Origin: Caldanaerobius polysaccharolyticus DSM 13641
GTDB taxonomy: Bacteria > Bacillota > Thermoanaerobacteria > Thermoanaerobacterales > Caldanaerobiaceae
Assembly: GCF_000427425.1 (NCBI RefSeq)
Contig: NZ_KE386494.1
Location: 66,857 to 130,856, forward strand
Length of the DNA: 64,000 nt
Direction: 5' to 3'
Position numbers and translations under genes: made by a program. Of this stretch, positions 12,575 to 28,452 are shown piece after piece (position 1 is the stretch's first letter; each line of letters starts with the position of its first letter). Under the pieces are notes generated by a model that saw only the letters and a program-made list of their open reading frames with translations, made no database searches and was not told the DNA's origin.

Positions 12575-13996
12575 TTGCACGAACACTATCAAAATCCTTT
12601 GATAACGAGATACGCATCTGAAGAAATGAAACAAAATTTTTCTGAAAAAAAGAAATTTACTACATGGCGAAAGCTGTGGGTGGCTTTAGCAGAAGGGGAA
12701 AAAGAGCTTGGACTAAACATAACTCAGGAGCAAATCGACGAGCTAAAAGCTCACGTGTACGACATAAACTACGATGTGGCACAGAAAAGGGAAAGGGAAG
12801 TAAGACACGATGTGATGGCGCATGTTTACGCATACGGTCAACAGTGTCCTAAAGCCAAACCCATAATTCACCTGGGTGCGACAAGCGCATACGTAGGGGA
12901 CAACGCTGATATCATAATATACAGGGATGCCTTAAAGATCATTAAGAAAAAATTGATTAATGCCATGGATATTTTGGCGCGTTTTGCCTTAAAATACAAA
13001 GATCTGCCTACGCTGGGCTTTACCCATTTTCAGCCGGCGCAATTGGTTACGGTAGGTAAGAGGGCATCATTATGGCTTCAGGATTTGCTTTTAGATTATC
13101 AAGATCTGGAATATAGGCTGTCAAATATGAAGCTTTTAGGGGTAAAAGGGACAACAGGAACTCAAGCCAGCTTTATGGAATTATTTAATAATGACCATGA
13201 AAAGGTAAAAAAGTTGGATTACATAGTAGCGAAAAAGATGGGCTTTGAAGAAGTATACCCTGTTTCGGGTCAAACCTATACCAGAAAGCTGGACAGCCAG
13301 ATCATGGGGGTTTTAAACGGAATAGCTCAAAGCGCTCATAAATTTAGCAACGATATAAGGTTGTTGCAGCACCTTAAAGAAATAGAAGAGCCTTTTGAAG
13401 AAAAACAAATAGGTTCTTCAGCTATGGCCTACAAGAGAAATCCTATGAGAAGTGAGAGAATGGCTTCTCTGTCCAGACTTGTCATAACTCTTTCATTAAA
13501 TCCCGATTTGACCGCAGCAGAGCAGTGGTTTGAAAGGACCCTTGACGATTCAGCCAACAGGCGAATCTCCATACCTGAGGCATTTTTGGCCGTGGATGCT
13601 ATATTAACGCTGTATATAAATATTGCAGGTGGTCTGGTGGTCAACGAGAAAGTAATAGCTAAGCACATAGAAGAGGAGTTGCCTTTTATGGCCACAGAAG
13701 CTATATTGATGGAAGGGGTAAAAAATGGTGGAGACAGACAGGAGCTTCATGAGAGGATAAGGAGATATTCTATGGAAGCCGCTTCACGGGTAAAAAGTGG
13801 ATTGAGCAATAACCTCCTTGAAAAAATAAAAAGCGACCCTTCGTTCCGCGTCGATGACATTGACAGCCTGATTTCGCCTGAGAAATTCATAGGGAGGGCT
13901 CCCGAGCAGGTTGAAGAATTTATTGAGAAAATGGTCAAACCGGTGCTGGAGAAAAACAGGGATTTGTTAGGTGTAAATGCTATTGTAGAAGTGTAG
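12575..13996 (+). CDS. purB: Adenylosuccinate lyase
   Basis: It cleaves SAICAR and adenylosuccinate in purine synthesis. The 473-residue protein has the fumarase/ASL superfamily signature GSSAMAYKRNPMRSE, the conserved LGATSAYVGDN and HFQPAQLVTVGKR blocks, and the ADSL C-terminal domain. Start TTG 12575 follows GGAGGTG by six bases. It is slightly longer than typical bacterial PurB (about 430) and closer to the long ADSL subgroup. Confidence 0.92.
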   Translation: MHEHYQNPLITRYASEEMKQNFSEKKKFTTWRKLWVALAEGEKELGLNITQEQIDELKAHVYDINYDVAQKREREVRHDVMAHVYAYGQQCPKAKPIIHLGATSAYVGDNADIIIYRDALKIIKKKLINAMDILARFALKYKDLPTLGFTHFQPAQLVTVGKRASLWLQDLLLDYQDLEYRLSNMKLLGVKGTTGTQASFMELFNNDHEKVKKLDYIVAKKMGFEEVYPVSGQTYTRKLDSQIMGVLNGIAQSAHKFSNDIRLLQHLKEIEEPFEEKQIGSSAMAYKRNPMRSERMASLSRLVITLSLNPDLTAAEQWFERTLDDSANRRISIPEAFLAVDAILTLYINIAGGLVVNEKVIAKHIEEELPFMATEAILMEGVKNGGDRQELHERIRRYSMEAASRVKSGLSNNLLEKIKSDPSFRVDDIDSLISPEKFIGRAPEQVEEFIEKMVKPVLEKNRDLLGVNAIVEV

Positions 13997-14011
13997 TGTA
14001 ACACAAAAGTG

Positions 14012-14058
14012 CCTCTTTGCATATAACATTTTATAAAGGGGTTTTATGTGCAAAGAGG
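14012..14058 (+). promoter_or_regulatory. 15-bp inverted repeat enclosing the spoVK-like ribosome binding site
   Basis: Arm 14012-14026 (CCTCTTTGCATATAA) pairs with 14044-14058 (TTATGTGCAAAGAGG) with one G-U wobble and a 17-base loop. The right arm contains the AAAGAGG ribosome binding core used by the ATG at 14069. No T-run follows, so it is not a normal terminator. A translational switch, or protection of the purB mRNA 3' end, is inferred. Confidence 0.6.
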
Positions 14059-14068
14059 TGACAAAGTG

Positions 14069-14929
14069 ATGAAATGTTTCAATAGGTTTGGCATATCAGC
14101 GTTTCAAGGCATTGACTTGGACGATAATATACAAAAAAGTGCACAGACTGATTTAACCCTGGAAGATTTGGTTGGCTTGGACGCTGTAAAGCAAACCATT
14201 AACGAGATAAAAGCTTTTTGCATCGTACAAAACCAGAGAAAGGCCATAGGTTTAAAACATCAGTCACTGGTTTTGCACATGATCTTTAAAGGAAATCCCG
14301 GAACAGGTAAGACCACTGTTGCCCGTATTCTCGGCAAAATTTTTAAAGATATAGGGGTGCTGGAAAAAGGCCACGTAGTCGAGGTGGACAGAGCTGATCT
14401 GGTAGGTGAGTACATAGGCCACACGGCTTTAAAGGTAAAGGAAAACATCAGAAAGGCCTTGGGTGGCATACTTTTTGTGGACGAGGCATATTCGCTGGCA
14501 CGGGGTGGAGATAGAGATTTTGGAAAAGAGGCTATTGATACCCTCGTGAAAGCCATGGAAGACCACAAAAATGAGTTTATACTGATCTTAGCGGGTTACA
14601 CCCACGAGATGAATTGGTTTATTGAAATGAATCCTGGCCTTAAATCCCGCTTCCCAATCCAGATAGAATTTCCCGATTATAACCTGGATGAGCTAATGCA
14701 AATAGCTTTGAAGATGTTCAGCGATAGGCAGTACGAGCTAGCTGAGTTGTCTAAAAAGAAACTGTTTCGCGTATTAAGCCATAAATATCCTCAAGACAAT
14801 GGCAATGCTAGATTGGTAAGAAATGTTGTAGAATTAGCTATAAGAAAACACGCCATGAGAATTGTAAACAAGAGCCATTTTAAAAAGGAAGATTTAATCT
14901 TAATACAACCTGAAGATATAATAGGATAA
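14069..14929 (+). CDS. spoVK: SpoVK-like AAA+ ATPase (CbbX/CfxQ family)
   Basis: The 286-residue AAA+ protein has Walker A GNPGTGKTT, Walker B ILFVDEAYSLARGG, a sensor region and the Arg-finger region LKSRF. SpoVK is a mother-cell sporulation protein of the CbbX clade in Bacillus, and the pairing with a YnbB-type lyase next door is shared with Bacillus. ATG 14069 has AAAGAGGTG at good spacing; an alternative GTG 14048 has its own AAAGGGG and would add seven residues. The ribosome binding site lies inside a hairpin. Some family members lack proven sporulation roles. Confidence 0.8.
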   Translation: MKCFNRFGISAFQGIDLDDNIQKSAQTDLTLEDLVGLDAVKQTINEIKAFCIVQNQRKAIGLKHQSLVLHMIFKGNPGTGKTTVARILGKIFKDIGVLEKGHVVEVDRADLVGEYIGHTALKVKENIRKALGGILFVDEAYSLARGGDRDFGKEAIDTLVKAMEDHKNEFILILAGYTHEMNWFIEMNPGLKSRFPIQIEFPDYNLDELMQIALKMFSDRQYELAELSKKKLFRVLSHKYPQDNGNARLVRNVVELAIRKHAMRIVNKSHFKKEDLILIQPEDIIG

Positions 14930-14941
14930 GGAGTTAGGACA

Positions 14942-16222
14942 GTGGATATAAAGGATTTTTTTAACATATCGGAAAAGCTGATAAAAATTTCAGGGGATGT
15001 TGAAAGTTCCATAAAAAGTATTTTTAATAAGGTTGATTCTGTTAAAGAGCACAATACATATAAAGTACTACGCGCTTTTCACGTCAATAAAGTAAGTGAA
15101 TCCCATTTTCATTCTTCTACTGGTTATGGATATGGTGATATAGGCCGTGATGTCATCGACAGGCTTTACGCTATGGTGTTTGATGCTCAAGATGCTATTG
15201 TAAGGCCGCATATCGTGTCAGGCACTCACGCTATTGCTTTGTGTTTATACGGCATATTGAGACCTGGGGATGAGTTAATATCTATAACTGGTAAACCTTA
15301 TGACACCTTGGAGGATGTAATAGGGATAAGTAATAAAGGTAATATAGGTTCTCTTAGAGATTTTGGCGTTTCATATAAGCAGGTAGACTTAATCAATGGA
15401 AAAGTAGACTACGAAGGAATTAAAGACGCTATAACATCAAAGACCAAGATGGTGTTAATTCAACGTTCAAAAGGATATAACTGGAGGCCTTCTCTTGATA
15501 TCCGTCAAATACAGCAGCTTATAGAATACGTTAAGGGAATAAAATCAGATGTCATATGCTTTGTGGACAACTGTTATGGTGAGTTTGTAGAAGATAAAGA
15601 ACCTACTTCTGTAGGAGCCGATATAATGGCAGGCTCCCTTATAAAGAATCCAGGAGGTGGTTTAGTAAGATCTGGTGGTTATATTGCGGGGAAAAGGGAA
15701 TACGTAGAGATGGCAGCGTATAGATTGACGACACCCGGCACTGGGAGAAAAGTTGGTTCGTCATTGGGCACAAACAGAGAGATCATACAAGGATTGTTCT
15801 TTGCTCCTCATGTGGTATCAGAGGCGTTAAAATCAGCGATCTTTGCTTCTAAGTTATTTGACACGCTGGGCTTTGCGGTCAATCCTGAGTGGGATGACCT
15901 AAGGACTGACATAATACAGATAATAAGGTTAGGAAGCAAAGAAAGGCTGGTATCGTTCTGCCAGGGTTTGCAAAAAGGCTCTCCTATCGATTCATTTGTG
16001 CTTCCAGAACCGTGGGATATGCCAGGTTACAATGAAGAAATCATAATGGCAGCAGGAACTTTTGTGCAAGGGTCTTCTATAGAGTTAAGCGCTGATGCGC
16101 CTTTAGTAGATCCATATTGCGTATATCTGCAAGGGGGGTTAATTTACGAACAGGCAAAAGTAGGAATACTGTATGGAGTGCAGGAGTTGCTGGACAAAAA
16201 ACTACTTCATCTTCCTGAATAA
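14942..16222 (+). CDS. Methionine gamma-lyase family / aluminium resistance protein (YnbB-like)
   Basis: This 426-residue PLP-dependent protein is of the Alum_res (PF06838) family, related to cystathionine lyases. Visible features are YGYGDIGRDVIDRLYA, the VSGTHAIALCLYG cofactor-binding block and the likely PLP lysine in SLIKNPGGG. Start GTG 14942 lies twelve bases after the spoVK-like stop, with a GGAG ribosome binding site. The physiological substrate is not established. Its last 21 bases overlap the 3' end of the convergent lexA gene. Confidence 0.87.
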   Translation: MDIKDFFNISEKLIKISGDVESSIKSIFNKVDSVKEHNTYKVLRAFHVNKVSESHFHSSTGYGYGDIGRDVIDRLYAMVFDAQDAIVRPHIVSGTHAIALCLYGILRPGDELISITGKPYDTLEDVIGISNKGNIGSLRDFGVSYKQVDLINGKVDYEGIKDAITSKTKMVLIQRSKGYNWRPSLDIRQIQQLIEYVKGIKSDVICFVDNCYGEFVEDKEPTSVGADIMAGSLIKNPGGGLVRSGGYIAGKREYVEMAAYRLTTPGTGRKVGSSLGTNREIIQGLFFAPHVVSEALKSAIFASKLFDTLGFAVNPEWDDLRTDIIQIIRLGSKERLVSFCQGLQKGSPIDSFVLPEPWDMPGYNEEIIMAAGTFVQGSSIELSADAPLVDPYCVYLQGGLIYEQAKVGILYGVQELLDKKLLHLPE

Positions 16223-20508: not shown

Positions 20509-20550
20509 ATCCCCAATTAGACGAAATAGTTATTTCGTCTAATTGGGGAT
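20509..20550. terminator. Bidirectional terminator between motB and the histidine kinase
   Basis: A perfect 20-bp stem (20509-20528 with 20531-20550) has only GT between the arms. It serves motB (+) and the kinase operon (-). The kinase stop codon (20539-20541) lies inside the right arm. Confidence 0.85.
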
Positions 20551-28307: not shown

Positions 28308-28342
28308 ATTTTTGTAAAGTCACAAAGCATTTAAAATACTTT

Positions 28343-28430
28343 GATGCTTCCCTACGCAGGCATTATCCTGACAGGTTCAAGGGTCGGGAACGAGTCCCCT
28401 CTCAGCCTCACACGAAGCTCCCCTAGCATC
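28343..28430 (-). ncRNA. TPP riboswitch (THI element)
   Basis: On the - strand the outer P1 stem pairs GATGCT (28425-28430) with AGCATC (28343-28348). Inside are the conserved GGCTGAGAGG core motif, the GACCCTTGAACCTG segment and GGATAATGCCTGCG, as in TPP aptamers. It controls thiD-cytX-thiM. Confidence 0.97.
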
Positions 28431-28452
28431 CTCTTATTTAGTTTCTAAATAC

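Follow-up and report, generated by a model that had tools for sequence, protein, structure and literature searches.

A conserved hairpin over the spoVK ribosome-binding site overlaps a sigma-K-type promoter motif and may insulate spoVK from purB read-through

How can a developmental gene lie directly behind a housekeeping gene without leaking from it? The question is raised by a spoVK gene of Caldanaerobius polysaccharolyticus DSM 13641, which follows purB in the window, i.e., the whole stretch of 64,000 nucleotides that was analyzed (Table 1). The two genes are co-directional, and the purB stop codon lies 72 nt ahead of the spoVK ATG. Between 12400 and 16400, the + strand contains no terminator-like site, and purB and spoVK are thus not separated by one. 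TIGR02881 (SpoVK) is by far the best family for the spoVK product. However, its curated cut-off of 422.95 bits is narrowly missed, and the gene is therefore strictly spoVK-like, though its neighbourhood is conserved. In B. subtilis, SpoVK is described as a MurG-activating chaperone, which activates this cell-wall enzyme in sporulation (PMC10659427). Such an activity is a plausible reason to exclude SpoVK from growing cells.

Table 1. Features of the purB-spoVK region, in positions of the window.
Feature	Position	Strand	Details
purB (adenylosuccinate lyase)	12575..13996	+	ORF; TIGR00928 388.9 bits, cut-off 326.2; stop codon 13994-13996
Putative sigma-K -35 element, AC	14001..14002	+	N17 to the -10; spacing identical in G001 and all leaders of the sister family f3
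Hairpin 5' arm	14012..14026	+	CCTCTTTGCATATAA; extendable by a G14011-U14059 pair
Putative mother-cell -10 element	14020..14028	+	CATATAACA; overlaps the 5' arm; 1 mismatch to CATAnnnTA
Hairpin loop, 17 nt	14027..14043	+	Between the arms
Predicted transcription start	~14035 (+/-2)	+	In the loop; placed from the -10 position
Hairpin 3' arm	14044..14058	+	TTATGTGCAAAGAGG; contains most of the spoVK Shine-Dalgarno site
7-codon ORF (MCKEVTK)	14046-14069	+	ATG 14046; stop overlaps spoVK ATG 14069
GTG, second start of the earlier note, rejected	14048..14050	+	Inside the 3' arm; impossible in G001
spoVK Shine-Dalgarno site	14054..14062	+	AGAGGTGAC; anti-SD duplex -11.5 kcal/mol
spoVK (AAA+ ATPase)	14069..14929	+	ATG 14069 start common to G001; TIGR02881 2.5e-120, 400.4 bits
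PLP-enzyme gene (methionine gamma-lyase-like), downstream	14942..16222	+	Adjoins spoVK in many relatives

An earlier note on this DNA had proposed a 15-bp hairpin over the spoVK ribosome-binding site, and folding and shuffling confirmed it. The stem has 15 pairs, one of them G-U, and its 5' arm lies 15 nt behind the purB stop. The AAAGAGG of ATG 14069 (14052-14058) is buried in the stem, as the note had stated. The minimum free energy of 13990-14100 was -31.1 kcal/mol (z -3.7), and 1 of 200 shuffles was equally stable. Freeing the spoVK Shine-Dalgarno site costs 13.7 kcal/mol; when the leader was dinucleotide-shuffled 2000 times, this value was reached twice. In the window, spoVK had the highest such cost of 51 genes. 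It ranked eighth among 376 genes when 400 kb of the same genome were added, at settings slightly different from those of the 51-gene ranking. The hairpin does not have the form of an intrinsic terminator, in which a GC-rich stem is followed by a T run, since its stem is followed by TGACAAAGTG. No Rfam model matched at the hairpin; the sole match in the window was a TPP riboswitch elsewhere (28332-28434 (-), 76.3 bits). Further copies of the hairpin across the genome were not found, bar chance matches of 15-25 nt. Separately, an inverted repeat of 20 perfect base pairs around a 2-nt loop, perhaps a terminator, lies at 20509-20550 of the window.

The hairpin is a real, conserved structure. A counterpart of 17 bp covers the spoVK site (AAAGAGGTGG) of G001, a genome of the same genus and the only other genome of the window's family that was compared; 31 of 2000 dinucleotide shuffles of its leader bury the site equally well. 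When the two stems are aligned at their common CAT, five pairs show a change in one partner only, no pair is broken and none is changed on both sides. A 13-nt block at the -10 element (TTTGCATATAACA) is identical in G001. In the sister family f3 (Thermoanaerobacter, Caldanaerobacter and relatives), 16 distinct spoVK leaders have a 12-17-bp hairpin at the same place over the site. Their stem (CCACATCCCAATATCAT / ATGGTATTGGGATGTGG and variants) is unrelated in sequence to that of the window, and in some of these genera the gene ahead of spoVK is purB. Conservation in G001 and the sister family supports the proposal of the earlier note that the hairpin may block spoVK translation. As to its suggested check for compensatory changes in relatives, the differences from G001 are all pair-preserving, and in f3 both sides changed in 1 of 17 pairs only, eight pairs being invariant. 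Covariation in f3 is weak because the stem hardly varies within the family, and we set it aside as a proof of the hairpin. Two loci of the sample, L012 and L019, have stems of 14 and 12 bp, yet these are ordinary by shuffle (40/100 and 10/100). At L016, spoVK seems to have a frame break close to its start, which may be a sequencing error. The start was misplaced and the locus was scored as being without the hairpin, but the same hairpin is present in its leader.

Long arms that are nearly unchanged within f3 might also be expected of an inverted repeat that serves as a DNA operator for a dimeric regulator and not as an RNA structure. However, the distance between the arms ranges from 15 to 29 nt in f3, which a dimer would hardly tolerate and which speaks for RNA pairing. 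Moreover, the stem sequences are unrelated between families, and the ribosome-binding site is always covered by the 3' arm. We therefore regard an operator as quite unlikely and treat the repeat as an RNA hairpin.

The 5' arm of the hairpin overlaps a putative mother-cell promoter. The general mother-cell -10 consensus is CATAnnnTA, from which the element of the window deviates by one base. The AC-N17-CATA spacing is exact in the window, in G001 and in all f3 leaders, where the -10 elements are CATAGAATA, CATAAAATA or CATAAGATA. The genome encodes sigma-K, with a match above the cut-off. In C. difficile, sigma-K promoters have AC and sigma-E promoters ATA at -35, the -10 elements being very similar, and the P2 promoter of sigK combines AC with the -10 element CATATAAT (PMC3789822). 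The spoVK gene of B. subtilis has one sigma-E and one sigma-K promoter, and its predicted sigma-K elements are 14-16 nt apart (PMC517825).

We then considered spoVK loci more widely. A pattern search gave at least 594 matches; 512 of these passed confirmation and the 80 best were retained, which biases the sample to closer relatives. Of the loci with a spoVK hit, L078 was left out, as it was without a start, and after identical start-region sequences had been merged 101 remained. A sigma-K-like motif was present upstream of spoVK in 65 of them; shuffles gave 5.3 and reversed sequence 6. Burial of the ribosome-binding site was called strong if no more than 1 of 100 shuffles buried the site as well, and 31 loci fell into this category. 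The motif was found in 29, where AC precedes the -10 by 18-20 nt and transcription is predicted to start past the 5' arm; at L035 and L115, this start falls within the 3' arm, by a few bases. The other two are the window, whose single -10 mismatch was disallowed by the scan, and L095, which is without AC.

Given that the predicted start of the window lies in the loop, RNA from the sigma-K-type promoter would lack the 5' arm. In the folding model, the cost of freeing the site dropped from the full-length to the promoter-started RNA in all 19 loci examined. The decrease was from 11.1 to 3.7 kcal/mol in the window, from 7.5 to 1.9 kcal/mol in G001 and from 20.1 to 0.5 kcal/mol in L115. The shortened RNA of G001 is predicted to retain a hairpin, though a weak one (-3.2 to -7.2 kcal/mol). 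As a side observation, L115 (Desulfosporosinus), L035 and L110 have stems of 11-17 bp over the spoVK ribosome-binding site that are unrelated to the stem of the window, and CGTATAGTA or CATACTATG lies within or beside the loop.

The sigma-K-type promoter and the unterminated purB, both missed by the earlier note, together suggest the purpose of the hairpin. It is probably a translational insulator against read-through from purB that leaves the sporulation mRNA readable. In growing cells, RNA polymerase would continue from purB into spoVK, as no terminator separates the two genes. The long read-through mRNA would have both arms, fold and hide the ribosome-binding site, and no SpoVK would be made. 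In the sporulating mother cell, polymerase with sigma-K (perhaps sigma-E) would start in the loop, just past the 5' arm. The ribosome-binding site of this short mRNA, which would lack the 5' arm, should be free, and SpoVK could be made.

The earlier note had assigned other roles to the fold. It placed a second start, GTG 14048, with its own AAAGGGG, exposed in the loop, so that the fold could choose between two N-termini. The AAAGGGG is well spaced ahead of this GTG and also of ATG 14046, from which a regulatory 7-codon uORF might be translated. However, both starts are inside the 3' arm, and the AAAGGGG is partly paired in the minimum free energy structure; located in the stem, the GTG is not exposed. 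In G001, an in-frame stop lies 12 nt upstream of the spoVK ATG, and a longer SpoVK therefore cannot be made there. The uORF is not conserved either, having shrunk in G001 to an ATG followed by TAA. Two N-termini or a regulatory uORF are thus scarcely credible. The note had also thought of a temperature-dependent switch. RNA thermometers such as ROSE and fourU have a hairpin over the ribosome-binding site, as has spoVK, and a thermophilic host is plausible since the sister family includes Thermoanaerobacter and Caldanaerobacter. In such a thermometer, heat would open the stem and spoVK would be translated only at high temperature. Unlike a thermometer, the spoVK stem appears too stable to melt at 70 C, where in the model the pairing of the site is still 97% or more in the window and 93% in G001, and the stems are continuous, without internal loops. 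We consider a thermometer very unlikely. From the earlier interpretation, a hairpin blocking spoVK translation is retained, but the two N-termini and the temperature switch are not.

If the hairpin insulates spoVK, how is it distributed relative to terminators? The loci were sorted by their upstream region, which covers 100 of the 101; L057 was left out, as no upstream gene was available for it. Where a co-directional gene lay at most 100 nt upstream and was not followed by a terminator, burial was strong at 27 of 38 loci, versus 4 of 62 for all others (3 of 41 with a terminator and 1 of the remaining 21). The three loci that combine a terminator with strong burial are L095, L102 and L103. Outside L009-L030, which comprise the window's family (f1) and f3, the counts were 9 of 17 versus 4 of 61 (3/41 + 1/20; Fisher p 6e-5). 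With one locus per cluster of similar leaders, the counts were 6 of 14 versus 4 of 50 (p 0.005). These p values, and that of the control comparison below, are descriptive, since the 115-nt leader and the detection of small genes were chosen after a first round of Fisher tests, in which an 80-nt leader was used, small upstream genes were missed and the result outside L009-L030 was not significant (p 0.14). In addition, strong burial was seen in 3 of 150 control genes, drawn from 204 at the same loci, versus 13 of 79 spoVK genes outside L009-L030 (p 1e-4). At a threshold of 5 or fewer of 100 shuffles, 19 of the 150 controls were buried, which is above nominal; the threshold to trust is therefore 1 of 100. 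In many distant loci (L046, L053, L059-L061 and others), a small gene of 76-90 aa, perhaps encoding Hfq, and then a terminator lie ahead of spoVK.

The position of the 5' arm relative to the upstream gene also bears on the insulator. At 18 f1/f3 loci with strong burial and an unterminated co-directional gene, the 5' arm begins 13-18 nt past the upstream stop. This is roughly where a terminating ribosome ends, and translation of the upstream gene should therefore leave the hairpin closed. At four loci outside f1/f3 (L066, L075, L088 and L094), the 5' arm is within the upstream coding region, where ribosomes would hold it open, and this counts against an insulator. The hairpin might instead be a constant brake that lowers translation on all spoVK mRNAs, its overlap with the promoter being incidental. 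The small hairpin over the sigG ribosome-binding site of B. subtilis is such a brake, of 2-4 fold (PMC5942855). However, RNA from the predicted promoter cannot form the spoVK hairpin in the model, and burial tracks the absence of an upstream terminator across spoVK loci. A constant brake is thus unlikely, and we prefer the insulator.

Other sporulation genes were also among the most buried sites of the 464-kb sample of the genome. In this sample, spoIIID ranked 2, spoIID 5, spoVK 8, a spoVD-like gene 11, pdaA 20 and sigG 23; annotation extended to the top 21 (20 genes besides spoVK) and, of 30 lower-ranked genes taken at random, to 20, one of which is sigF. The spoIIID gene has a hairpin over its ribosome-binding site, with a -10 element in the loop, in both genomes of the genus. 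These stems are 10 bp in the same genome as the window (L194) and 14 bp in G001 (L193), and the mother-cell -10 element in the loop is GCATATATTA. Strong burial at other sporulation genes was patchy, with 3 of 29 loci for spoIIID (this genus included) and 1 of 29 for spoIID, and a device general over sporulation genes was rejected on these counts. The hairpin device thus occurs at individual genes, spoVK being the steadiest case. With sigG taken as a yardstick, site-burying stems with a forespore -10 in the loop were found in the same genome and in several of 30 loci. In the sigG leaders L150, L148, L145, L147, L151, L152 and L153, a stem of 7-14 bp covers the ribosome-binding site and the loop contains a forespore-like -10, as in B. 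subtilis. The deepest buried ribosome-binding site of the 376 genes (22.9 kcal/mol, 13-bp stem) belongs to L164:12291-13148 (-), whose product of 286 aa has no NCBIfam match.

Spore-forming Clostridia may have two interchangeable insulators for spoVK, a terminator or a promoter-spanning hairpin, the hairpin having emerged, or been remade, on several occasions with unrelated sequence. We find the considerations for and against this broader proposal evenly balanced. If it is true, keeping SpoVK out of growing cells is under strong selection, and the sequence from -35 to -10 is constrained by pairing with a ribosome-binding site some 15-30 nt beyond. A developmental gene could then lie behind a housekeeping gene without leaking, one stretch of DNA being both promoter and half of an RNA lock. 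The proposal makes it testable why clostridial spoVK genes have a terminator in some cases and a hairpin in others, and it gives a sequence signature for locating more such sites. The recurrence of the hairpin and its swap with terminators seem to be new; a literature search, whose coverage mostly excluded subscription papers, found no published report of a spoVK read-through hairpin, the one match for spoVK with a hairpin being about protein structure.

Related devices are known. In phage T4, the sites of late genes such as gene e are hidden in early read-through RNA. As proposed, spoVK resembles gene e in being silent on long RNA but translated if the RNA begins within or past the 5' arm. 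Unlike spoVK, gene e belongs to a phage and has a late promoter and unrelated sequence. The small sigG hairpin also covers the ribosome-binding site of a sporulation gene and is often conserved. Unlike that of spoVK, it has 5 bp and is wholly in the gene's own mRNA, as a constant brake (PMC5942855). The same source describes a larger hairpin at sigG (spoIIIG) of B. subtilis, of 20+ bp, whose proposed role is to keep read-through RNA from being translated and which RNA from the gene's own promoter cannot form. In both cases a sporulation gene lies behind another operon, and a long hairpin is proposed to hide the ribosome-binding site in read-through RNA. The spoVK locus resembles sigG in its co-directional gene directly upstream without a terminator, and in an extended stem that takes in the ribosome-binding site and, in the model, forms only in the longer RNA. 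The developmental promoter motif of spoVK is at conserved spacing, and its start is predicted in the loop, past the 5' arm. The two differ in the gene, in the promoter (mother-cell sigma-K-type at spoVK, forespore at sigG), in the stem (15-17 bp versus 20+ bp) and in the metabolic gene purB upstream of spoVK. On paper, the spoVK hairpin most likely works as the large sigG hairpin is proposed to do.
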